A stretch of DNA of 40,605 nucleotides from Deltaproteobacteria bacterium (GTDB taxonomy: Bacteria > Desulfobacterota > Desulfobulbia > Desulfobulbales > Desulfurivibrionaceae), in contig JAJZPC010000017.1 in the NCBI GenBank assembly GCA_021811385.1, forward strand, positions 1-40,605, read 5' to 3'. Positions 15,619 through 40,605 of this stretch are shown here, in pieces. Under the pieces are notes generated by a model. That model ran no database searches and was not told the DNA's origin. It saw only the letters and a list, made by a program, of their open reading frames with translations. Every line of letters starts with the position of its first letter. Within the stretch, counting starts at the first letter, position 1. The position numbers and the translations under genes are program-made.

Positions 15619-15648
15619 TTGACTTCATTGGATTTTTCTTACTACTAT
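15619..15648 (+). promoter_or_regulatory. Sigma-70 promoter upstream of the MogA-like gene
   Basis: TTGACT (15619-15624), 18-nt spacer, TACTAT (15643-15648). The predicted start, near 15655, is about 29 nt before the gene, which carries an AAGGAG site. Confidence 0.65.
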
Positions 15649-15683
15649 GCGACAGACCTCAACCTGCCCCAAGGAGACAGCGC

Positions 15684-16178
15684 ATGACAGCATACACCGG
15701 CGGCATACTGACCATCAGCGACAAGGGTTCGCGCGGAGAGCGGGAAGACACCAGCGGCCCTCAGTTGCAAGCAATGCTCATCGAACAGGGATTTTCCGTG
15801 GTGGCCTACACAATCGTCCCGGACGAAATCGCCCAAATACAGGAAACCCTCCGTGCCTGGGCGGATGAGAAGAAAATCGACCTGATCCTGAGCACCGGCG
15901 GCACCGGCGTTTCCCCCAGCGATCAGACCCCGGAGGCAACCCGGGCGATTCTTGACCGGGAGATCCCCGGCATCGGCGAAGCCATGCGCGCCGCCAGCCT
16001 GCAAAAAACCCCCAACGCCATCCTTTCCCGGGGCATCGCCGGGATCAGGAAACAGAGCCTGATCATCAACCTTCCGGGCAGCAAGAAAGCGGCCCAGGAG
16101 AACCTGGCGGCGGTGCTCCCCGCTTTGCAGCATGCCATTTACAAGATCCAAGGCGGCGCCAAGGACTGCGGAAGCTGA
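15684..16178 (+). CDS. Molybdenum cofactor protein, MogA/MoaB family
   Basis: A 164-residue protein of the MoCF-biosynthesis fold. MogA adenylylates molybdopterin before metal insertion. The core binding motif is STGGTGVSPSDQTPEATRA (about 70-88), with the N-terminal GILTISDKGSRGEREDTSG and the later INLPGSKKAAQENL. Length and motifs fit both MogA and MoaB. I cannot separate them by eye, so no symbol is given. A molybdenum or tungsten cofactor protein is consistent with an anaerobe using Mo/W oxidoreductases. The plus-strand gene has its own promoter and ends before a terminator shared in position with purM. Confidence 0.88.
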   Translation: MTAYTGGILTISDKGSRGEREDTSGPQLQAMLIEQGFSVVAYTIVPDEIAQIQETLRAWADEKKIDLILSTGGTGVSPSDQTPEATRAILDREIPGIGEAMRAASLQKTPNAILSRGIAGIRKQSLIINLPGSKKAAQENLAAVLPALQHAIYKIQGGAKDCGS

Positions 16179-16188
16179 GCCCGTAACG

Positions 16189-16219
16189 AAAAAGGCCCAC
16201 GGAAAAACCGTGGGCCTTG
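16189..16219 (-). terminator. Intrinsic terminator of purM
   Basis: AAGGCCCACGG, a short A/T loop, CCGTGGGCCTT. On the minus strand the stem is followed by a T-run (TTTTTCG), so it mainly ends purM. On the plus strand no T-run follows, though the stem lies just after the MogA-like gene. Confidence 0.85.
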
Positions 16220-16244
16220 CACAACAAACCATATAAAAAATTAA

Positions 16245-17303
16245 TCAGCCGCAATCAACCTCAACGGCCATGGTGTCTTTCTTCTTCATGGCGTCAATCT
16301 CCCCGATCAGATACGGGGATTCGCCCAAGGCAATCAGTTGCTGCATGCAGTCATCCACCTGTTTCGCGTCAACCACCACAACCATGCCGATGCCGCAGTT
16401 GAAGGTCCGGCACATCTCATGGGACGAGATTTTTCCATTTTTCTGCAGAAAATCAAAGATCGGGAGAACCTGCCAGCCCTTCTTGTTGATCACCGCCTTG
16501 CAGCCATTGGGCAAAACCCGCGGGATATTATCAATAATGCCGCCGCCGGTTATGTGAACCAGTCCCTTCACCTTGAAATTCTTCACCAGATTCAGCAGGG
16601 TTTCGCTGTAGATCCTGGTCGGCCGCAACAACTCCTCGCCCAGGGTGCAGCCAAGCTCATCGATTCTATCGTTGACGCTGAGCCCCATCTCCTCAAAGCA
16701 TATTTTGCGCACCAGGGAAAAGCCGTTGCTGTGCACCCCGCTTGAGGCAAGACCGATCAACTTGTCGCCGACGCTGATCTCGGAGCCGTCGATCAGCCTG
16801 TCCCGCTCGCAGATCCCGACCACAAACCCGGCGATGTCATAGTCCCCGGCCTGATACAGCCCCGGCATCTCCGCCGTTTCCCCGCCGATCAGGGAGCATT
16901 TGGCAATCTCGCAGCCCTTGGCGATTCCCTTGACCACGTCGGTGGCAACCCCGAGATCAAGCCCGCCGGTGGCGAAATAATCAAGAAAGAAAAGGGGATG
17001 CGCACCGCAGACGATGATATCGTTCACGCACATGGCCACCAGATCGATGCCGATGGTGTCATGCTTGTTGCACATCTCGGCGATCTTCAGCTTAGTGCCG
17101 ACCCCGTCGGTGGACGACACCAGGACCGGATCCTGGAACTTGCCGCCGCCCAGGGCGAACAGGCCGCCAAACCCGCCAATGCCGGTAAGCACTCCGGGCC
17201 GGAAGGTAGAGGCGACAATCGGCTTGATGGCATCGACAAAGGCGTTGCCCTTATCGATATCAACTCCAGCTTCCGCGTAACGAGAAATCTCTTTCTTAGC
17301 CAT
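16245..17303 (-). CDS. purM: Phosphoribosylformylglycinamidine cyclo-ligase
   Basis: ATP-dependent ring closure of FGAM to AIR, step five of purine synthesis. 352 residues. AGVDIDKGNAFVDAI opens the protein; SSTDGVGTKLKIA, GIDLVAMCVNDI, SLIGGETAEMPG and ITGGGIIDNIPRVLP are family signatures. ATG 17303 is chosen (MAKKEISRYAEAG); upstream in-frame sequence does not resemble the family. A minus-strand promoter (TTGACT 17470-17475, TAAAGA 17447-17452, spacer 17) lies about 145 nt upstream. It is a single gene closed by a terminator. It appears complete. Confidence 0.97.
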   Translation of the reverse strand: MAKKEISRYAEAGVDIDKGNAFVDAIKPIVASTFRPGVLTGIGGFGGLFALGGGKFQDPVLVSSTDGVGTKLKIAEMCNKHDTIGIDLVAMCVNDIIVCGAHPLFFLDYFATGGLDLGVATDVVKGIAKGCEIAKCSLIGGETAEMPGLYQAGDYDIAGFVVGICERDRLIDGSEISVGDKLIGLASSGVHSNGFSLVRKICFEEMGLSVNDRIDELGCTLGEELLRPTRIYSETLLNLVKNFKVKGLVHITGGGIIDNIPRVLPNGCKAVINKKGWQVLPIFDFLQKNGKISSHEMCRTFNCGIGMVVVVDAKQVDDCMQQLIALGESPYLIGEIDAMKKKDTMAVEVDCG

Positions 17304-17675
17304 AATCGTCTTCGGTAACCCCAAATTCTCAATCTTATAAAAAAAGCCGCGGACAAAAAATCCGTGCGGTGCGTTCGTAATCCCTAGCCGAAATTTTCTC
17401 GGCATGTGACCCGATGGCCCTGATTCTTCTTTTTTTTACGAGACCATCTTTAATTGCCAGCCCCGTAAAAGTCAACCAGTTTTCCGGTAACACCTTGAGA
17501 ACACAAGGCTTGCGTAAGGCAATGGGCGCAAGGACAAACTTCCACGCCACTCTCTCCTTGATTGAAAGTGTACCCTGTTCAGCCGGATAAACTCAAGCGC
17601 ATTTCATCCCCGCCGCGCGAATTGCCGGGAAAGGCCCAGCCAGCCCAGATTGCCTGGAAAAATCACTTGCCTTGG
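17304..17675. other. Intergenic region between purM and the zinc-ribbon operon
   Basis: Holds a plausible minus-strand purM promoter (17447-17475, sigma-70 spacing 17). A minus-strand open frame of 71 codons (17335-17550, basic, GTG start) spans that promoter. Its AAGGAG is only 3 nt from the GTG, so I do not call it a gene. Nothing else recognisable. Confidence 0.4.
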
Positions 17676-30624: not shown

Positions 30625-30627
30625 ATG

Positions 30628-31374
30628 ATGCAGGACGGAACGATCAATCTTGAGGATTACACCAAATCCGATTGGACCATTATGCTCAATGACCGGGTCA
30701 TCGCCCGCTTCACCACCCATGAAGGCAGCAAGCTCATTATCGGCCGCAGCCCGGATGCGGATGTCGTCATCGACAACACCGCCATCTCCAGACATCACTC
30801 ATCCCTTGAACTTCGGGATGGCCGCCATTACCTGGCAGACTTGAAAAGCACCAACGGCACCACCGTGAACGGCAAAAAGATTGCTTCAAAGGTGCCGATC
30901 ACGGAGAAAGACGTTATTTTTATCGGAAAATTCCGTTTGATCCAGTCCGCGACAGACGACCAGCATGCTTCTTCATCCTACGCCACAGCCATGGATATCG
31001 ATGACGAAGCAACTGTTTTTGTCAGCTCTCCGAGGCAACAGGCCACTGCTCAACCCAGCCAGACCGCCACCCCTTCGCAAAACGAAATCTACCGGCTCGC
31101 GGTAATAGAAGGCAACGCCGCGCCGACCACGCTCTCCCTTGACGGCAAGAGCAGTGTGAAAATCGGCAAGGATTCGTCCTGCGACATGATCATTTCCGGC
31201 TGGCTTGTCGGCAAGCCCCAGTGCTATGTGGTAAGCAAAAAAGACAAATATTACATAGTGCCCCAGCGATCATGGGCAAACACCCGGCTCAACGATGTCA
31301 TCATCAAAGAGGAACGCCTCTTGCGCAAAGGCGACATCATCCAAATCAAGAGTGTGAAAATCAGGTTCAGTTAA
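30628..31374 (+). CDS. Protein with two FHA domains
   Basis: A 248-residue soluble protein. The first FHA domain (about 35-105) has all phosphothreonine-binding residues: IIGRSPDADVVI, ISRHHSSLEL and STNGTTVNG. A disordered Ser/Gln/Thr-rich linker follows. A second FHA-like domain (about 150-248) keeps the fold (SVKIGKDSSCDMII) but lacks the SxxH motif and is probably structural. FHA proteins read phosphothreonines written by a Ser/Thr kinase, and the next gene is one. ATG 30628 is preferred over 30625 because AAGGA is 5 nt away. It starts the signalling operon. Confidence 0.88.
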   Translation: MQDGTINLEDYTKSDWTIMLNDRVIARFTTHEGSKLIIGRSPDADVVIDNTAISRHHSSLELRDGRHYLADLKSTNGTTVNGKKIASKVPITEKDVIFIGKFRLIQSATDDQHASSSYATAMDIDDEATVFVSSPRQQATAQPSQTATPSQNEIYRLAVIEGNAAPTTLSLDGKSSVKIGKDSSCDMIISGWLVGKPQCYVVSKKDKYYIVPQRSWANTRLNDVIIKEERLLRKGDIIQIKSVKIRFS

Positions 31375-31382
31375 TCTCCCGG

Positions 31383-33821
31383 ATGCTTTCCAGACTCTTT
31401 GATCAAATAGGCAAGTGGAAAAAAGGCGCCTTCCCGGGTATCCCAGGTGAAACACCCGCCCAATCCCGGCAGTCCCCAGCAGCCGTCCATATCCCGGAGG
31501 TTCCTGTCTGGGCGCCCGGAGATACCATTCTTAACCGGTATCTTATCGAACAGGTCATGTCGGGCTCCATGGGGAATATCTACATTTCCGAACATCTCGG
31601 CTGGAAGATAAAGGTCGCCATCAAAGCTCCCAGACCGGAAGTCCTTGCGGACCGCGAGGGCATGCGCCGGATACTCAAGGAAGCCAACAGCTGGGTCCGG
31701 ATGGGCATGCACCCGAATGTGGCCTCCTGTTTTTATGTTCTCGGCATCAATAAAATCCCCCACCTTTTCATTGAATTTATCGATGGCGGAAACCTTTCCG
31801 ACTGGATCAAGGCCGGACGTTGCCGAAATCTCCGCACTGCCCTGTCCCTTGCCATCCAATTCTGTCACGGCATGGAATTTACCCATCAGCGTGGCATTAT
31901 CCACCGCGATATCAAACCCCAGAATATCCTGATCACCAAAAACTCCCTGCTGAAAATAACCGATTTCGGCATCCTCCTGGCCCATGGCGAGACGGAGAAT
32001 GGCGATGGCCAGGTTCCCGGCGCCGACACCACGGATCATGAGGCGACCATCGGCTTCCGGGGAACCCTGGGCTACGCCTCCCCGGAACAACTGCGCAACG
32101 CCCACTCGGTTGACCTGCGGACCGATATTTTTTCCTTCGGCCTGTGCCTCTGGGTCATGCTCTGCGGCAAGAAGCCTTTTACCAACAATGCCCTTGAACA
32201 TAAAATACCCACCCCGACTCCGGTGGCACCGGATGTCAAATTCCCCGCAGTGCTCAAGGATATTTTACGCAAAAGCGTTGCCTACAATCCGGACGACCGG
32301 TATGCCAACTTCAGCGAAATGCGCGCGGCTCTCAACGAGGCATACACCGCTGCCTTCAACACCGCCTGCCCCTATGCGGAACTCAGCAATATCGATCTGA
32401 GGGCCGACAGCCTCAACAACCGTGCGGTCTCCCTTTTTGAGTTGGGGGAAACCAACGAAGCCGCAGCCTGCCTGAGCAAAACCCTTGAAATCAACGAGAT
32501 GCTCCCAGAAGCCGTGTACAACATGATCTTGCTCAACTGGCGCTCGGGGACAAAGACCGCAAAAATTATCCGGCAGATAGAAACCGCCAAGAAACGGGGG
32601 GCCACAACACCCTGGCTCACCGACATGGAAGCAGCGGTCAAGCGCAGCATGGTGGCGGACAAGATTGAGCTCGATAAACAGCAGTTTCCTGAATTCCGGT
32701 TGTGTACCCCCAAAAATTCCCTGGAGATTTTCCGCGAAGGCCAGCTCCATCTTTCGGTGCAGCGCAACATCCTCGACCATCTGGAAAACAAACGCTATGG
32801 ACCTTGTCACGATATATTGATGACTGCCTGGAAAAACAGCAGCTACAAAAAAGACAAAATCTTCAACATGGTCTATGACCGGCTGCTGCGGGTCGGAACA
32901 AAAAAGAAGGTGCTGGGGGTTCAGCGCTTTCTGACCCTGAAAGGTGACGGAGGGCCGACAACACATCTCGCCCATATCCCGAACACGAAAAAATTTGTTG
33001 CCGCCGGCCCAGGGGGAAAAATAACCCTCCATGACCTTGGCTCTGCCTCGCAGCAGGGCATTGTCCTGGGCGAAGGCGGCAGCACCATTTCCGCGCTGGC
33101 AGTCTGCCCCATGGGCAAATATATCGCCGTCGGCGCCCAGGACGGAACCGTCTGCCTGTTTTCCACCAAGACCGGCGCCATGGAATCACGGGAACCTGCC
33201 CACAACGGCGCGGTGCACTCCTTGGCCTTCAACGACAATGGCCGCCACCTGGCCTCCGGCGGGGCAGACGGCATCATGAAGATCCGCAAGCTCGGCACCG
33301 GCCCGGAAATGACCACCTCGATCAAGGAAGGCGGCGCTGTCCGCGCCATTACTTTCACCACCACCGGTTTGAATCTGGTCACCGGAAGCCAGGACGGCTC
33401 TGTCCGTATCTGGAACGCAAACGGCAAGGAATGCTCGCGAATCATCGAAGCCCATGCCATGCCGGTTATCGCCCTGGCAAATTCGCCCGATGGCCAGCGC
33501 TTCGTCTCGGCCGGCACCGACCGGCATTTAAAGGTATGGGAACACACCACCGGCCGCGGCCTCAAATCAATCACGGCCCATGACGAAACCATTTCTTCCG
33601 CCCTGTTTCTCCAGGACAACCAGACCCTGATCTCCGGCTGCGAGGATGACATCATCAAGCTCTGGGACAGCAACAGCGGTGAATGCCTTGCCATCCTTGA
33701 CGGCAGAGGCGACGGCATATACAGCCTTGCCCACGGGCCGAAACCCCACACCTTTCTCGCCGGCAGGAAAGACGGGGCCATTGTTTTCTGGATGGTAATC
33801 TACCAACTGCATTTTGAGTAA
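31383..33821 (+). CDS. Ser/Thr protein kinase with TPR-like linker and WD40 repeats
   Basis: An 812-residue Hanks-type kinase. Kinase domain about 50-320: glycine loop MSGSMG (first Gly replaced by Ser), VAIK Lys81, HRDIKPQN (Asp176), DFG (194-196), GTLGYASPEQ (227-236). All catalytic residues are present. About 325-460 is a TPR-like helical stretch (NNRAVSLFELGETNEAAACLSKTLEINEMLPEAVYNM). From about 560 to the end lie repeated WD40 units, e.g. GAVHSLAFNDNGRHLASGGADG, SGCEDDIIKLWDSNSGECL. No membrane segment follows the kinase domain, so the enzyme is cytoplasmic. Translation starts 8 nt after the FHA stop. The WD40 part is likely a protein-binding platform. Confidence 0.92.
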   Translation: MLSRLFDQIGKWKKGAFPGIPGETPAQSRQSPAAVHIPEVPVWAPGDTILNRYLIEQVMSGSMGNIYISEHLGWKIKVAIKAPRPEVLADREGMRRILKEANSWVRMGMHPNVASCFYVLGINKIPHLFIEFIDGGNLSDWIKAGRCRNLRTALSLAIQFCHGMEFTHQRGIIHRDIKPQNILITKNSLLKITDFGILLAHGETENGDGQVPGADTTDHEATIGFRGTLGYASPEQLRNAHSVDLRTDIFSFGLCLWVMLCGKKPFTNNALEHKIPTPTPVAPDVKFPAVLKDILRKSVAYNPDDRYANFSEMRAALNEAYTAAFNTACPYAELSNIDLRADSLNNRAVSLFELGETNEAAACLSKTLEINEMLPEAVYNMILLNWRSGTKTAKIIRQIETAKKRGATTPWLTDMEAAVKRSMVADKIELDKQQFPEFRLCTPKNSLEIFREGQLHLSVQRNILDHLENKRYGPCHDILMTAWKNSSYKKDKIFNMVYDRLLRVGTKKKVLGVQRFLTLKGDGGPTTHLAHIPNTKKFVAAGPGGKITLHDLGSASQQGIVLGEGGSTISALAVCPMGKYIAVGAQDGTVCLFSTKTGAMESREPAHNGAVHSLAFNDNGRHLASGGADGIMKIRKLGTGPEMTTSIKEGGAVRAITFTTTGLNLVTGSQDGSVRIWNANGKECSRIIEAHAMPVIALANSPDGQRFVSAGTDRHLKVWEHTTGRGLKSITAHDETISSALFLQDNQTLISGCEDDIIKLWDSNSGECLAILDGRGDGIYSLAHGPKPHTFLAGRKDGAIVFWMVIYQLHFE

Positions 33822-33855
33822 TTTCCCCGCCCGGGAAAACAACGGTACGCGCACG

Positions 33856-34620
33856 ATGTTCGGTTTTTTAAAAAAAATCTGCAAAAGCAAACCCAGGACC
33901 ATTTCATTTTATGGCCGCACGGACACCGGAATGGTCCGCGATCATAACGAAGACAGCTTTTGTTCCTTGCGCAACCGGCGTCTTTTCGTGGTGGCCGATG
34001 GCATGGGCGGCCATAATGCCGGCGAGGTCGCCAGCCGCCTGGCCATCGAATCCCTGCTCGAATTCCTCTCGGAAGAAAAAATCCGGGAGATCCGAGGCAA
34101 CGACGAGGCGATCCACCAGAGCATGCTGGACGCCTTCAAGCATGCCAACCAAACAGTAATGGCCAAAGCCGACGACGACGAAACCATGCGGGGCATGGGC
34201 TGCACCATGGTCGCCTGCCTGCTTGACGACAACCGGCTCCACACCTGCCACGTCGGTGACGCCCGCTGCTATATCTCCGAAAAGGGGAGTCTGCAACAGA
34301 TCACGACCGATCATACCTCCGTGACATACATCAGCAGAACCGATGCCAACAACAACGAGATCCAGGTTCCCCGCAACGTGGTCACCAGGGCAATCGGCTT
34401 CCATTCCCATGAGGGGCCGGAATACCACAAAACCATCCTGCGGCCGGGGAACAGAATCCTGCTCTGTTCGGATGGGTTGTGGAACATGGTTGACCACACC
34501 CGGATTGAACAGATCCTCCTCAATGCCCCCACCCCGGAAAATGCCAGCGAAACCCTGGTCACGGCAGCCAACGAGCAGGGCGGACGCGACAACGTCACGG
34601 CCCTGGTAATCTTTTATTAA
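33856..34620 (+). CDS. PP2C-family Ser/Thr phosphatase
   Basis: A 254-residue metal-dependent phosphatase. Metal and catalytic residues: RDHNEDSF (Asp33), VADGMGGHNAGEVAS (Asp48), GMGCTMV, HVGDARCY, CSDGLWNMV and GGRDNVTAL. The length is that of a stand-alone bacterial Stp/PrpC phosphatase, lacking a membrane tail. Enzymes of this type reverse the action of Hanks kinases. The ATG at 33856 lies 34 nt past the kinase stop, and a TTG upstream overlaps that stop. The order FHA-kinase-phosphatase fits one operon. Confidence 0.93.
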   Translation: MFGFLKKICKSKPRTISFYGRTDTGMVRDHNEDSFCSLRNRRLFVVADGMGGHNAGEVASRLAIESLLEFLSEEKIREIRGNDEAIHQSMLDAFKHANQTVMAKADDDETMRGMGCTMVACLLDDNRLHTCHVGDARCYISEKGSLQQITTDHTSVTYISRTDANNNEIQVPRNVVTRAIGFHSHEGPEYHKTILRPGNRILLCSDGLWNMVDHTRIEQILLNAPTPENASETLVTAANEQGGRDNVTALVIFY

Positions 34621-34631
34621 AGAGCGAAACG

Positions 34632-35222
34632 ATGTCCGCCCGGCACAACGACCAGAACACCCTTGAAAACATCGCCGCCGACCTGCGAACTCTTGCCGAT
34701 GACCTGAGCCGGGGAAAACTCCGGGTCGGCAGCCGGCTTATCGCCATAGGAAACCCTCTGTTCATAAAAACCAAACAGAAGATCTCCGGCGACACTGCGT
34801 ATTGCACCCTTTCTTTTCAGGTGCCCCTCCGTGAGTTAGACAAGGAACCCGCACCGACCACCGACCAGAGGGAGACCTCAGCAAAAAACCGAGAGGTCAG
34901 GGATGACAGGGAGCTGCGTTTCAAGGGGAGACCGCCCGAGGGGAAAAAAATAAAAAAAGAGATCAGCTCCCTCTGGAAAACCGTTGCCAAAAAATTGGAA
35001 CAGGGGCAACCCCCTACCCCTGCCGAAGAAAAATCCCTTGTTTCCGCCTTTGAAAAGTATACTGTCTTTACCGAATCACCCTGGCATGAGGAATGGCTTG
35101 CCTGCTTCACGCTCTTGCGTGAGGCCTTGGCCTGCGCCCGCGGGGGAGATATGCGCACCGCCCGGGAACAGGCCGCGAAGGTAAACGAGCTCACCAGGGC
35201 TTGCCACAAACAACATAAATAG
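34632..35222 (+). CDS. Amphi-Trp / XXXCH-like domain protein
   Basis: A 196-residue protein of unknown function. The N-terminal part (about 8-66: LRTLADDLSRGKLRVGSRLI, then alternating strands to CTLSFQVPL) resembles the amphi-Trp-type domain; a basic Arg/Lys/Glu linker (70-120) follows. The C-terminus (about 130-196) ends AREQAAKVNELTRACHKQHK, with the Cys-His pair at 191-192 that names XXXCH proteins. As I recall from family naming, such proteins occur with ATP-grasp/kinase 'GAK' systems. No such partner is visible here, only the upstream kinase genes. It is not a haem site, since the second Cys is missing. Family names are from memory and not verified. Confidence 0.6.
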   Translation: MSARHNDQNTLENIAADLRTLADDLSRGKLRVGSRLIAIGNPLFIKTKQKISGDTAYCTLSFQVPLRELDKEPAPTTDQRETSAKNREVRDDRELRFKGRPPEGKKIKKEISSLWKTVAKKLEQGQPPTPAEEKSLVSAFEKYTVFTESPWHEEWLACFTLLREALACARGGDMRTAREQAAKVNELTRACHKQHK

Positions 35223-35233
35223 CCTGCGCCCAT

Positions 35234-36037
35234 ATGACTCCCTTCGAGATTGTCAAGCGGACCCCAAAGACCAATTGCGGGCAATGCGGTTATCCCACCT
35301 GCCTTGCTTTTTCGGCGGCTGTGGCGAAAAGCGGCGAGGCGTTTGCCAAATGCCCCTATCTCGACACCACCGGGCTCAAGACCTTGCCCGACGAAAGGGG
35401 GCTCGCATTGGAGGAGCTTTCCGGACAACGGGATCTGGCCCTTATCGAACATCTGAAAGACAAGATTTCCACCCTGGACTTTACCCGTATTGCCGTCCCG
35501 TTGGGCGCCAGTCTCTGTGGCGAAGGCAACCAGACCCTGTCGTTTCCCTTTCTTGCCCAGGAGGTGCTGCTGAGCAGACAGGGAATCCTCCTCAACGGCC
35601 GCACCCCGGAGGATCCCAGGGACCAGATTCTGATCTACAATTATATCCACTCCCAGGGCGGGGCAGCTCCCGCCCTGGATTGGATCGGCCTGGAAACCCT
35701 GCCGAACTCCATCTCCAAGGTAAGAACCCTTGCCACCTATTGCGAAAACAGATTGGCGGAGCTCTTCACCCCTCTTCCCGTCGAGACAATCATGGCGGCC
35801 TGCCACCAGCTGGGAGGTGTTGCCCACCCGGCGCCCTCCGCCACGCTGGGATGCATCATCCCGGTCCTGCCCAGGATTCCCCAGTATCTGGTCTACTGGG
35901 AGGCGGAACCCGAAGACGGATTTCCCGCCAAGGTCAAGATTCTTTTCGATCGCCAGGTTTCGGATTTTCTCGACCTGGAATCCCTGATCTTTTCGGCGGA
36001 ACGTCTGGCAGACCGGATTGCCGTCCTGCTGGGCTGA
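35234..36037 (+). CDS. (4Fe-4S)-binding protein with DUF3786 domain
   Basis: A 267-residue protein. The N-terminus binds a 4Fe-4S cluster: NCGQCGYPTC ... KCPY, i.e. C-x2-C-x4-C-x16-C at 15, 18, 23 and 40. The same module occurs in Rnf-B and the corrinoid Fe-S protein of the acetyl-CoA pathway. The remainder (PFLAQEVLLSRQGILLNGR..., ENRLAELFTPLP, GVAHPAPSATLGCIIPVLPRIPQYLVYWEAEPEDGFPAKVKILFDR) matches DUF3786, a family of anaerobes whose function is unknown. It begins 11 nt after the XXXCH-like gene and may be in the same operon. It may link redox state to the signalling genes, but this is speculation. Confidence 0.85.
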   Translation: MTPFEIVKRTPKTNCGQCGYPTCLAFSAAVAKSGEAFAKCPYLDTTGLKTLPDERGLALEELSGQRDLALIEHLKDKISTLDFTRIAVPLGASLCGEGNQTLSFPFLAQEVLLSRQGILLNGRTPEDPRDQILIYNYIHSQGGAAPALDWIGLETLPNSISKVRTLATYCENRLAELFTPLPVETIMAACHQLGGVAHPAPSATLGCIIPVLPRIPQYLVYWEAEPEDGFPAKVKILFDRQVSDFLDLESLIFSAERLADRIAVLLG

Positions 36038-36156: not shown

Positions 36157-37485
36157 ATGGCCCGAAAACCTGCCGCACATAGCGCCCCTCTGGCAGAACG
36201 GCTGCGTCCGCAGACAATAGATGATTTTGTCGGGCAAAAACAGCTGTTGGGCGAAGACAAGCTTCTCCGGCGGCTCATCCAGCAGAAATATCTGCCCTCC
36301 CTGGTGCTTTGGGGGCCGCCCGGCACCGGCAAAACCACCCTGGCCCGGATCCTGGCCCAAACAACCGGCGCTGATTTTGCCTTCTTTTCCGCCGTGCTCT
36401 CCGGGGTCAAGGAGATCCGGGAGATAGTCGTGCAGGCCCAAACCGCCAAGGAAGAGCGCAACACCGCCACCATTGTTTTCGTGGACGAGATCCATCGCTT
36501 CAACAAAAGCCAGCAGGACGCCTTTCTCCCCCATGTGGAAAGCGGCCTGTTGACCCTCATCGGCGCAACCACCGAGAACCCTTCTTTTCACGTTATCGCG
36601 CCCCTTCTCTCCCGCTGCAGGGTATTGGTTCTCGAACCGTTGGGGCCGGAAGATCTGCAAACCATTCTCCAGCGGGCCATCACGGACACGGAACAGGGGC
36701 TGGGCGCCTGGCAGATCGCCCTTGCGCCCGAAGCGGCCGCCCACCTGGCCAGGATTGCCGACGGAGATGCCCGCAGTCTGCTGAACAGTCTGGAAATCGC
36801 CGCCAATCTGGCCGAACCGGATGCCGATGGCACGCGGCAGATAACCCTGGCCACGGTGGAAGAGGCCATTCAGCGCAAAAGCCTGCGCTATGACGCGGAC
36901 GGCGAGGAGCATTACAATCTGATCTCGGCCCTGCACAAAAGCCTGCGGGACAGCGATCCGGACGGCGCTCTGTACTGGCTGTGCCGGATGCTCGCCGCCG
37001 GGGAGGAGCCCTTGTACGTGGTCCGCCGCCTGATCCGCTTCGCCTCGGAAGATATCGGCAATGCGGACCCGCAGGCCCTCACGATTGCCATCAACGCCAG
37101 AAACTCGTATCAGACCCTGGGCAGTCCGGAAGGCGAACTGGCCCTGGCCCAGGCCGTCACCTATCTTGCCACCGCCCCCAAGAGCAACGCCGTCTATGCC
37201 GCCTATAACTCAGTGATGCACGACATCCGGCGCACGGGCACCTTGCCGGTGCCGCTCCATCTCCGCAACGCGCCAACCTCGCTGATGAAGGATCTCGGCT
37301 ACGGCAAGGGCTACCAGTATGCCCACGATGATCCCCATGCCCTGGTGGATCAACATCACCTCCCGGACCAACTTGAAGGAAAAACCTATTATCAGCCCGC
37401 CAACCGGGGCTATGAAGCGATCATCCGGGACCGGCTTGGCAAATGGCGACAGCTGCTGCGGGATCGAAAAAAACAACCCGCCTGA
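36157..37485 (+). CDS. rarA: Replication-associated recombination protein RarA
   Basis: AAA+ ATPase (MgsA/WRNIP1 family) acting at stalled replication forks. 442 residues. Walker A WGPPGTGKT (52-60), FVDEIHRFNKSQQDAFLPHVE Walker B, sensor GATTENPSF, then C-terminal tetramerisation region with RFASEDIGNADPQAL and YLATAPKSNAVY. Start ATG 36157 (MARKPAAHSAPLAERLRP) fits the family. It has 120 nt of non-coding DNA upstream. Identification is secure. Confidence 0.96.
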   Translation: MARKPAAHSAPLAERLRPQTIDDFVGQKQLLGEDKLLRRLIQQKYLPSLVLWGPPGTGKTTLARILAQTTGADFAFFSAVLSGVKEIREIVVQAQTAKEERNTATIVFVDEIHRFNKSQQDAFLPHVESGLLTLIGATTENPSFHVIAPLLSRCRVLVLEPLGPEDLQTILQRAITDTEQGLGAWQIALAPEAAAHLARIADGDARSLLNSLEIAANLAEPDADGTRQITLATVEEAIQRKSLRYDADGEEHYNLISALHKSLRDSDPDGALYWLCRMLAAGEEPLYVVRRLIRFASEDIGNADPQALTIAINARNSYQTLGSPEGELALAQAVTYLATAPKSNAVYAAYNSVMHDIRRTGTLPVPLHLRNAPTSLMKDLGYGKGYQYAHDDPHALVDQHHLPDQLEGKTYYQPANRGYEAIIRDRLGKWRQLLRDRKKQPA

Positions 37486-37528
37486 TTCGTTTTCAGGCAA
37501 CGACGATACATATGGAGTGAAGACCACG

Positions 37529-39172
37529 ATGAACAAACCAACCACCTTTCTGTTGCTTTTCCTTCTTGCCCTGCTCGGCATAACCGTATCCGCATCCGGG
37601 GCGGCGTCAAAACAAAAGGGCGCCGCCAAACAACCGGCAGGGATAGAGCACGACGTGACCATCTTCTTTGCCAATGACGTGCGGGGAGAAACAGAACCCT
37701 GCGGTTGAAAAAGCAACCAGTTGGGCGGTCTGCCCAAAAAAGCCCAGCAGCTTGAAGCCCTACGGGGGAAAAAAACCGCAGTGCTCCCCCTTGACAGCGG
37801 AGCCCTGCTTTTCAAGGATGAAAAGCTCCCCCAGGACCAGCGCGAACAGCTCGTTGTGACGGCACAGGGAATTGTCACGGCATACAACAAGATGTCCTTT
37901 GCCGGTGTCGGCATCGCCCGTCAGGATCTCGCGGCAGGCCTTCCCTTCCTGCTCGCTCTCCAGAAGAAAGCAAGCTTCCCCTGGCTGAGCGCCAATCTGC
38001 TCAGCCGCACCGATCGCAAGCCGTGGTTCAAGCCGCACACCCTGCTCACAACAGGCGGGATGCGCATCGCGGTCATCGGCCTCACCGCTCAAGGGGCCGA
38101 CTCGCTCCTTACGGACAAGGACAACGCGGTCATTGCCCCATGGGAAGAGGTGTTGCCCCAGGAACTCGCCCAGCTGAGGGGCCGGGCCGGGATGACCATT
38201 CTGCTTTCCAGCTATCCTTCCGCGATAAACAGAAAGATCGCCGAGGCCCATCCGGAGATCCACCTGATTCTTCAGGGAGGGGACAGCCGGGGCAACATGC
38301 CCCCGGAACGGGTCAACAACACCCTGATCACCCAGGTGGAACCCCAAGGCAAATCAGTGGGCTTCCTGGAGGTGCATTGGAACGCGGAAAGCAAGAGATG
38401 GGAAGAGACGGGCTCGGAAAATCTGCTGACAGACAAGCAAAACGAGTTGGATCGGTTGGGATGGCAGATCAACCGCTACCGCCGGCAAGGCGATCCGACA
38501 CAGGCATTCAAGAACCAACCCCAGGTTCTTGAAGCCTATAACGACATGCTTGCAAAACAACGACTGCTGGAGGAGGAGATTCTCCGTCTTACCGCCGAGC
38601 AGAACGCACGGGATGCGAACCGTTCACGATTCTCTTCGTACAGCTTCCATTTTGAGACCATGCGCAAGGATCTTCCGGACAATCCGTCCGTCCGGGCCAT
38701 TGTCGATGCAACCACCAGCGAGGTAAACCGGATCGGCAAGGCTGCGGTAAAGGCGAGAATCTCGGAGAGTACCGGCCGGAAACAGGAAGGGACTTCGGAA
38801 AAATACGCCGGCAGCACCGCCTGCACCAGCTGCCATGCCCCGCAGTTTGCCAAATGGCGGACCACGCAACATGCCACGGCCTATGACACCCTGGAGACAA
38901 AAGAACAGCAGTTCAATGTCCAGTGCCTTCCCTGCCACATCACCGGACCCGCCGCCCAGACAGGACAGGAAATGCTCGCCCTTGCCCACGACCTGCGCCA
39001 GGTCGGCTGCGAATCCTGCCATGGACCGGCCCAAGCGCACACCCTTCAGCCGGCGGCAGCCAAAGTCGGTCAGCCGACCATGGCCACCTGCCAACGTTGC
39101 CACACGGGCGACCATGATGACAGATTCAACTTTTCCGAAGCGCTCTCCCGCCTTCGCTGCGGCGCGGACTGA
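37529..39172 (+). CDS. Selenocysteine-containing tetrahaem cytochrome with 5'-nucleotidase-like domain
   Basis: A 547-residue exported protein if TGA codon 60 (37706-37708) is read as selenocysteine; both sides are in one frame. Signal peptide: about 1-25 (MNKPTTFLLLFLLALLG). Then IFFANDVRGETEPCG-U-KSNQLGGL, a Cys-Gly-Sec motif (Cys58, Sec60). I recall relatives having EPCGC-x4-LGGL here. The domain (about 40-290) follows 5'-nucleotidase strand order (LLTTGGMRIAVIGLTAQGADSL, LILQGGDSRG), but metal positions look lost: NDVRG replaces NDxHG and GGDS replaces GHSH. A coiled-coil-like segment is at 294-364. Four CxxCH haem sites follow: 432-436, 466-470, 494-498, 521-525. It should be periplasmic or surface-exposed, probably in electron transfer or redox chemistry. 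GGAG lies 11 nt before the ATG. Annotation pipelines would split it. Confidence 0.85.
37706..37708 (+). other. In-frame TGA recoded as selenocysteine (codon 60)
   Basis: The TGA follows the Cys-Gly codons of the EPCG motif and precedes KSNQLGGL in the same frame. I recall homologous proteins having Cys at this site. Confidence 0.82.
37721..37737 (+). promoter_or_regulatory. Predicted bacterial SECIS hairpin
   Basis: TTGGGC (37721-37726), loop GGTCT (37727-37731), GCCCAA (37732-37737): a perfect 6-bp stem. The loop sequence is the same as the apical GGUCU of the E. coli fdhF SECIS, closed by a G-C/C-G pair there too. It begins 12 nt, and the loop 18 nt, after the TGA, about the distance SelB needs. 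It lies inside the coding sequence, as bacterial SECIS elements do. Confidence 0.78.
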
Positions 39173-39183
39173 TCCGCAGGCAT

Positions 39184-39216
39184 AAAAAAAGGCCGGGAGA
39201 CATGTGTCTCCCGGCC
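39184..39216 (-). terminator. Intrinsic terminator of dnaK, convergent with the cytochrome gene
   Basis: GGCCGGGAGACA, TG, TGTCTCCCGGCC. The minus-strand reading is followed by seven T; the plus-strand reading has the matching A-run before it and no T-run. It serves dnaK mainly and blocks read-through into the cytochrome gene. Confidence 0.9.
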
Positions 39217-39243
39217 CGAAATCATCGCACTCCGCAGTAGTGG

Positions 39244-40605
39244 TTACTTCACTTCTTCAAAATCCGCGTCCACCACATCGTCGTCATCCTTCTTTGCCCC
39301 ACCGGCCTGCCCACCGCCTTCGCCGCCTTCCGCAGCCTTATCCTTGGTGGCCTGGGCATACATCATCTCAGCCAGCTTATGGGAAGCCTGGGTCAAGGAC
39401 TCAAGCCCCTTCTTGATCGCCTCCACATCGTCGGACTCCATGAGCTTCTTGAGGCTGTCGATTTCGACCTGGACCTTGTTCTTGGTCTCGCTGTCAACCT
39501 TGTCGCCCAAATCCTTCATGCTCTTTTCCGTGGCGTAGATCATGGAATCGGCCTGATTCTTGGTTTCGACCAACTCCTTGCGTTTGCGATCCTCGTCGGC
39601 ATGGGCCTCGGCGTCCTTCTGCATCCGTTTGATCTCTTCCTCGGAAAGACCGCTGGAAGCGGTGATCCGGATGGATTGCTCCTTGCCGGTGCCGAGATCC
39701 TTGGCGGAAACATGGAGAATGCCGTTGGCGTCGAGATCAAAGGTGACCTCGATCTGCGGCACCCCGCGCGGGGCCGGGGGAAGGTCGGTCAGCTCGAAGC
39801 GGCCGATGGTCTTGTTGTTTGCCGCCATTTCGCGCTCGCCCTGGAGCACATGGATGGAAACCGCGGGCTGGCTGTCCGCCGCAGTGGAGAAAACCTGGCT
39901 CTTCTTGGTCGGGATGGTGGTGTTCTTCTCGATGAGCTTGGTCATCACCCCGCCCAGGGTCTCGATACCCAGGGACAACGGGGTAACGTCGAGGAGCAGC
40001 ACGTCCTTGACATCGCCCTTGAGCACCCCGCCCTGCACCGCGGCGCCGATGGCCACGACCTCATCCGGGTTCACGCCCTTGTGGGGATCCTTGCCGAAGA
40101 TCTCCTTGACCTTTTCCTGCACCTTGGGCATCCGGGTCATGCCGCCGACCAGGATAACCTCGTCGATGTCCGCCGCGTTGATCCCGGCATCCTTAAGGGC
40201 AATCTGGCACGGTTTGACCGTGCGTTCGATCAGATCCTCCACCAACCCTTCCAGCTTGGCGCGGGAAAGCTTCATCTGCAGATGCTTGGGCCCGGAGGCG
40301 TCCGCCGTGATAAAGGGCAGGTTGATGTCGGTCTCCATGGTGGTGGAGAGCTCCATCTTCGCCTTTTCCGCCTCTTCCCGCAACCGCTGCAAGGCCATAT
40401 TGTCGGTGCGCAGGTCAATGCCCTGATCCCGCTTGAACTCATCGGCAATCCAGTTGACGATGCGCATGTCGAAGTCTTCGCCGCCGAGGAAGGTGTCGCC
40501 GTTGGTGGATTTCACCTCGAACACCCCGTCGCCGATCTCCAGCACCGAAATATCAAAGGTGCCGCCGCCCAGGTCGAACACGGCGATTTTTTCCTCGCCC
40601 TTCTT
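39244..40605 (-). CDS. dnaK: Chaperone protein DnaK (N-terminus outside window)
   Basis: Hsp70 chaperone; 453 C-terminal residues of about 640 are present. Frame is open to the window edge. [15 protein letters not shown] and [21 protein letters not shown] are nucleotide-binding-domain motifs; [23 protein letters not shown] starts the substrate-binding domain. The C-terminus ends in a Gly-rich tail and the conserved DADFEEVK type end. The start, grpE and dnaJ would lie to the right of the window if the usual order holds. Identification is secure. Confidence 0.97.

Follow-up and report, generated by a model that had tools for sequence, protein, structure and literature searches.

The locus and its gene family

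The window analyzed here, a 40,605-nt stretch of DNA from a Deltaproteobacteria bacterium, carries a forward-strand reading frame that is interrupted once, by an in-frame TGA at codon 60 (ETEPCG-TGA-KSNQLGGLPKK in translation), and that terminates at a second TGA (Table 1). With codon 60 read through, the product comprises 547 residues plus the stop. A first, sequence-only reading had described two frames in the same phase, split by a single TGA, the downstream one without a credible start of its own; translation confirmed both points, as the sole start within the 3′ part is a TTG at 37721, the first base of the hairpin described below, and the 483-aa open reading frame (ORF) that it opens would be devoid of the signal peptide.

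Table 1. Features of the locus, in window coordinates
Feature	Positions	Strand	Basis
UshA-like PCGU selenoprotein gene (predicted)	37529..39172	+	NF041198, 617.6 bits vs cut-off 275; TGA codon 60 taken as Sec
Hydrophobic N-terminus, probable signal peptide	37529..37606	+	Judged from the translation alone
Predicted Cys58-Gly59-Sec60 motif	37700..37708	+	C58 and G59 invariant in 69/69 rows; residue 60 Sec or Cys
In-frame TGA, predicted Sec codon	37706..37708	+	TGA 57, TGC 11, TGT 1 among 69 distinct loci
SECIS-like hairpin TTGGGC-GGTCT-GCCCAA	37721..37737 (loop 37727-37731)	+	Sequence and comparison with relatives
UshA/5′-nucleotidase-like domain, most usual metal-ligand residues gone	37652..38428 (extent approximate)	+	Profile and alignment
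Tetrahaem c554-like domain	38801..39136 (extent approximate)	+	CXXCH starts at residues 432, 466, 494 and 521; His448 and His504 invariant in 69/69 rows
RarA/MgsA-type AAA+ ATPase gene, directly upstream	36157..37485	+	Linkage kept with the Sec form

The product matches the NCBIfam model NF041198 (UshA_like_PCGU, "UshA-like (seleno)protein") over profile positions 15-519 of 519, and this model scores over its cut-off in 190 of the 257 genomes of the order. Among Pfam models, only the cytochrome part gave a match over cut-off (Cytochrome_C554, PF13435; 50.8 bits, cut-off 20.8). The gene shares the architecture and the PCGU motif of the NF041198 family, and we found no feature separating it from that family: the CxU position holds a TGA or Cys codon in all 69 distinct loci compared, and four CXXCH motifs form the C-terminal multihaem part of the product and of all 68 relatives counted. 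By contrast, a second model with a related UshA-like domain, NF049981 (UshA-like (seleno)protein family 2), for which a CxxU rather than a CxU motif is listed, reached 32.1 bits, far under its cut-off of 140, and the ExtKL multihaem (seleno)protein model NF040886, despite its tetrahaem likeness, reached 15.1 bits against a cut-off of 250.

Selenoproteins of this kind were tabulated in 2008 as "COG0737, UshA-like", with the CxU motif and 76 selenoproteins, in an entry that does not mention haems (PMC2398784), again in 2022 as "UshA-like protein", CxU (PMC9312934), and in 2026 as "UshA-like protein, NF041198, CxU" (PMC13188914); the entries in these three tables give no substrate. A literature search for the selenoproteome of the Desulfobulbaceae returned nothing. 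Since the model name UshA_like_PCGU itself states the motif, both the family and the Sec position were already catalogued, and the proposal of the sequence-only reading that this was a new selenoprotein location has to be given up. The gene is an ordinary member of a catalogued selenoprotein family, with Sec at the known place, and is no discovery.

The surroundings offer several further observations. At 30625-34620, genes for an FHA-domain protein, a Ser/Thr kinase with WD40 repeats and a PP2C phosphatase lie in a row and may form a signaling cluster. Before the rarA-type gene, 34632-36037 encodes an XXXCH-domain protein (30.3 bits, under the cut-off of 40) and an Fe-S/DUF3786 protein, and the order of these two genes and rarA is kept in four relatives (L016-L019). 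A 12-bp inverted repeat (39190-39217) that has a T-run on the minus strand is probably the dnaK terminator; the scan that covered such terminator-like sites counted 3, against 3.3 in shuffled sequences. A scan of the window for other read-through frames, which demands exactly one TGA between TAA/TAG stops and so misses TGA-ended genes such as the present one, listed three; one of them, at 15648-17435 on the minus strand, was rejected, as it looks like two neighboring ORFs sharing a frame.

Domains and codon 60 in the relatives

Among the matches listed, at least 138 genomes hold a copy with one internal TGA and at least 12 an uninterrupted copy (tabulated by hand). We read codon 60 in 74 loci, of which 30 plus 4 came from the match searches and 40 were chosen by hand, with all 12 listed uninterrupted copies included. 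All 74 align through the column of codon 60, and each has TGA, TGC or TGT there. Removal of five loci identical over the stretch left 69 distinct ones, the window locus counted among the 57 with TGA, beside 12 with a Cys codon.

The sequence-only reading had called the product a tetrahaem, nucleotidase-like protein, which agrees with the profile matches of its N-terminal domain to nucleotidases (3ivd, E = 1.1e-17; 1ush, E = 1.2e-16), with the four CXXCH haem motifs in its translation and with the likeness of its tetrahaem domain to cytochrome c554 (1bvb, E = 1.7e-16 by profile; also PF13435). Cys58, Gly59, the CXXCH motifs, His448 and His504 are invariant in all 69 rows, and residue 60 is always Sec, as predicted from TGA, or Cys. 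A predicted structure, computed for the window protein and four relatives, had a mean pLDDT of 40.3 and was too poor to use.

The nucleotidase matches would suit a protein that still acts as UshA does, as a metal-dependent phosphatase or nucleotidase in which Sec has an accessory role. The metal-ligand and catalytic residues of UshA are His43, Asp84, Asn116, His117, Asp41 and Asp120, and we paired their columns by eye from the profile alignment. On that pairing, the Asp41 and Asp120 columns hold Asp in 56 and 66 of the 69 rows, in favor of such an enzyme, but the Asp84 column holds Asp in 3, the His43 column His in 10, and the Asn116 and His117 columns neither Asn nor His in any row. The set of metal ligands and catalytic His that marks a UshA-type metallophosphoesterase is therefore not present. 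Because most metal-ligand residues have been lost, phosphatase activity is unlikely. Compared with E. coli UshA and other 5′-nucleotidases, the product is alike in its N-terminal domain by profile, but its metal ligands are mostly gone and it has the CxU motif and the haems in addition. In sequence, the CGU motif comes after the first of the former metal-ligand motifs. Our preferred reading is that this putative redox centre sits on a phosphoesterase fold that is no longer catalytic and to which the tetrahaem domain is joined.

The homologue alignment, which the sequence-only reading had set as its test, also bears on whether codon 60 is a stop at all. A true stop, arising by nonsense mutation or from a TGC codon misread in sequencing, might be suspected in a draft assembly from which tRNA-Sec was not recovered. 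However, TGA occupies the same codon in 57 of the 69 distinct loci, across many genera and also in G186, G077 and G070, whose genomes are each listed as a single contig, and the reading frame goes on past it in every one of the 57, which makes a true stop very improbable. Cys, as that reading had expected of the relatives, occurs at the column in the other 12. That the locus encodes a short secreted peptide and, as a second protein started at the TTG at 37721, the cytochrome can be dismissed almost entirely: the 483-aa ORF does exist, but its start is the first codon of the hairpin, the cytochrome would have no signal peptide, and each of the 12 Cys relatives is one uninterrupted protein. The nonsense, sequencing-error and two-gene readings were thus all rejected on the homologue evidence. 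The copy in G170 also has an internal TAG.

Both forms occur together in five genomes among the matches listed (G238, G242, G241, G253 and G256; loci L060, L061, L064, L062 and L065, respectively). A tree of the 69 proteins requires, on its well-supported branches, three switches between Sec and Cys. Under a midpoint root, used for display only, the Cys rows fall in three places within Sec groups, which makes replacement of Sec by Cys the simpler course.

The hairpin and the selenocysteine machinery

As the sequence-only reading had noticed, the TGA is followed by a hairpin of 6 bp with the loop GGTCT, 18 nt lying between the TGA and the loop. In loop and spacing it resembles the SECIS of E. 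coli fdhF, which has a GGUCU loop at an 18-nt distance. The candidate element may be recognized by SelB.

Taken from one sequence, the argument is weak, and weaker than the sequence-only reading supposed: of 20,000 synonymous recodings, 26% still had a 6-bp hairpin whose loop contains G somewhere within the tested range, and the same six pairs can form in 1.8%. The protein sequence itself favors a hairpin here. Moreover, a 47-nt fold prefers a different pairing (z = -0.70), and Rfam gave no match up to E = 5 over 37400-39300. What stands is the conservation among relatives, and it is from there, rather than from the single sequence, that the putative element draws its significance. The inner five pairs, with G-U allowed, are possible in 57/57 TGA copies versus 2/12 Cys copies (Fisher 1.9e-10), and GGCGGTCTG is kept in 51/57 versus 3/12 (Fisher 1.5e-5), with p-values that overstate the significance, as the tests ignore kinship. 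The loop GGTCT itself is kept in 51 of the TGA and 4 of the Cys copies. Stronger evidence for the candidate hairpin than these tests is the constancy of synonymous sites: the Gly codon at +6 is GGC, and the codon at +8 is CTG, in every TGA copy, versus 7 of the 12 Cys copies in each case. The SECIS-like hairpin expected downstream of the TGA in a bacterial selenoprotein gene is present here and conserved together with Sec. One Cys copy, L061 (the TGC form in G242), can still form the six pairs.

At 36, 39 and 45 nt, the inner stem is part of the minimum-energy fold in 43, 46 and 38 of the 57 TGA copies, versus none of the 12 Cys copies. The mean folding energy is slightly better for the Cys stretches (-9.2 versus -8.5 kcal/mol), and stability alone is therefore no marker of the element. 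Little covariation is seen, the variation being confined to the outermost pair (T-A in 32, C-G in 11 and unpaired in 14 of the 57) and one G-C/G-U change.

The machinery for selenocysteine that the sequence-only reading had proposed to look for was found in large part. The source assembly is a draft of 2.6 Mb in 108 contigs, 75.1% complete, in which selB (359.7 bits), selA (619.2 bits) and selD (380.1 bits) all score over cut-off. The selD gene (L101, G000:C16:42594-43517) has an in-frame TGA of its own and is therefore probably a selenoprotein gene too. The tRNA-Sec, whose lack the sequence-only reading had named as a refutation, was sought in the 75%-complete assembly without success: the six hits listed, all under cut-off, are ordinary tRNAs (Trp, Leu, Ser, Arg, Leu and Pro). 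Across the genus, 15 of 17 genomes have a tRNA-Sec over cut-off, the two without being the source genome and G201; both of the two hits inspected among the 15 are tRNA-SeC with the anticodon tca.

The distribution of selB in the order can be set beside the two forms. Counting selB as under cut-off where the best E-value exceeded about 1e-70, a threshold that gives back the 214 of 257 genomes tallied over cut-off, we found it under cut-off in 43/257 overall, in 19/138 genomes with a listed TGA copy, many of the 19 being incomplete, and in 6/7 genomes with only Cys copies listed (tabulated by hand). The TGA genomes thus lie near the background, in contrast to the Cys-only ones. Five of the latter belong to one genus (G071-G075; L026, L029, L063, L068 and L069), in which only Cys forms are listed and selB is over cut-off in none of the five, a pattern consistent with loss of selenocysteine use.

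Together, the column of 57 TGA and 12 Cys codons, the conserved hairpin and the presence of selA, selB and selD bear out the central claim of the sequence-only reading, that of Sec in a tetrahaem, nucleotidase-like protein. We put at about 0.93 the probability that the TGA of codon 60 is read as Sec in a member of the NF041198 family. Decoding would be carried out by SelB and tRNA-Sec, directed by the hairpin just downstream.

Linkage to rarA and a proposed function

The neighborhood differs between the two forms. The gene immediately upstream is of the rarA type in 27/27 TGA loci of a first set and 8/10 of a second (not in L120 and L122), which with the window makes 36/38, versus 0/12 loci of the Cys form; the search spanned about 1.5 kb upstream (3 kb in four loci), and the loci were best scorers and hand choices, mutually related rather than random, from one order. 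Of the five genomes with both forms, two had their TGA copies tested: G242 has its TGA copy beside rarA and its Cys copy elsewhere, and in G253 neither tested copy adjoins rarA. A literature search on rarA and selenoproteins showed, among the 8 of 19 papers listed, none that by its title concerned such a linkage.

The product is probably exported and loaded with four c-type haems, and it is probably a redox protein, as its motifs suggest. Its N-terminal domain would be a relative of the 5′-nucleotidases that has shed most metal ligands and no longer acts as a phosphatase, and the Cys-Gly-Sec motif would be the probable reactive centre. This motif may exchange electrons with the tetrahaem domain so as to reduce or oxidize a substrate, perhaps one containing sulfur or selenium, a proposal to which we give slightly less than even odds. 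With somewhat greater reserve, we suggest that a dead 5′-nucleotidase fold has turned into a selenium-haem redox enzyme, whose Sec form might have a distinct, ancestral role tied to its locus, because the linkage to rarA is kept with Sec across most of the order and three Cys lineages lie away from it.

The locus is thus very probably a true selenoprotein gene of a known family, with Sec at the known place. The combination of an in-frame TGA, Cys in relatives and an fdhF-like hairpin is a line of reasoning able to find real selenoproteins from raw sequence. Three features give a concrete hold on the function of the family: its lost metal site, its repeated switching between Sec and Cys, and its linkage to rarA.
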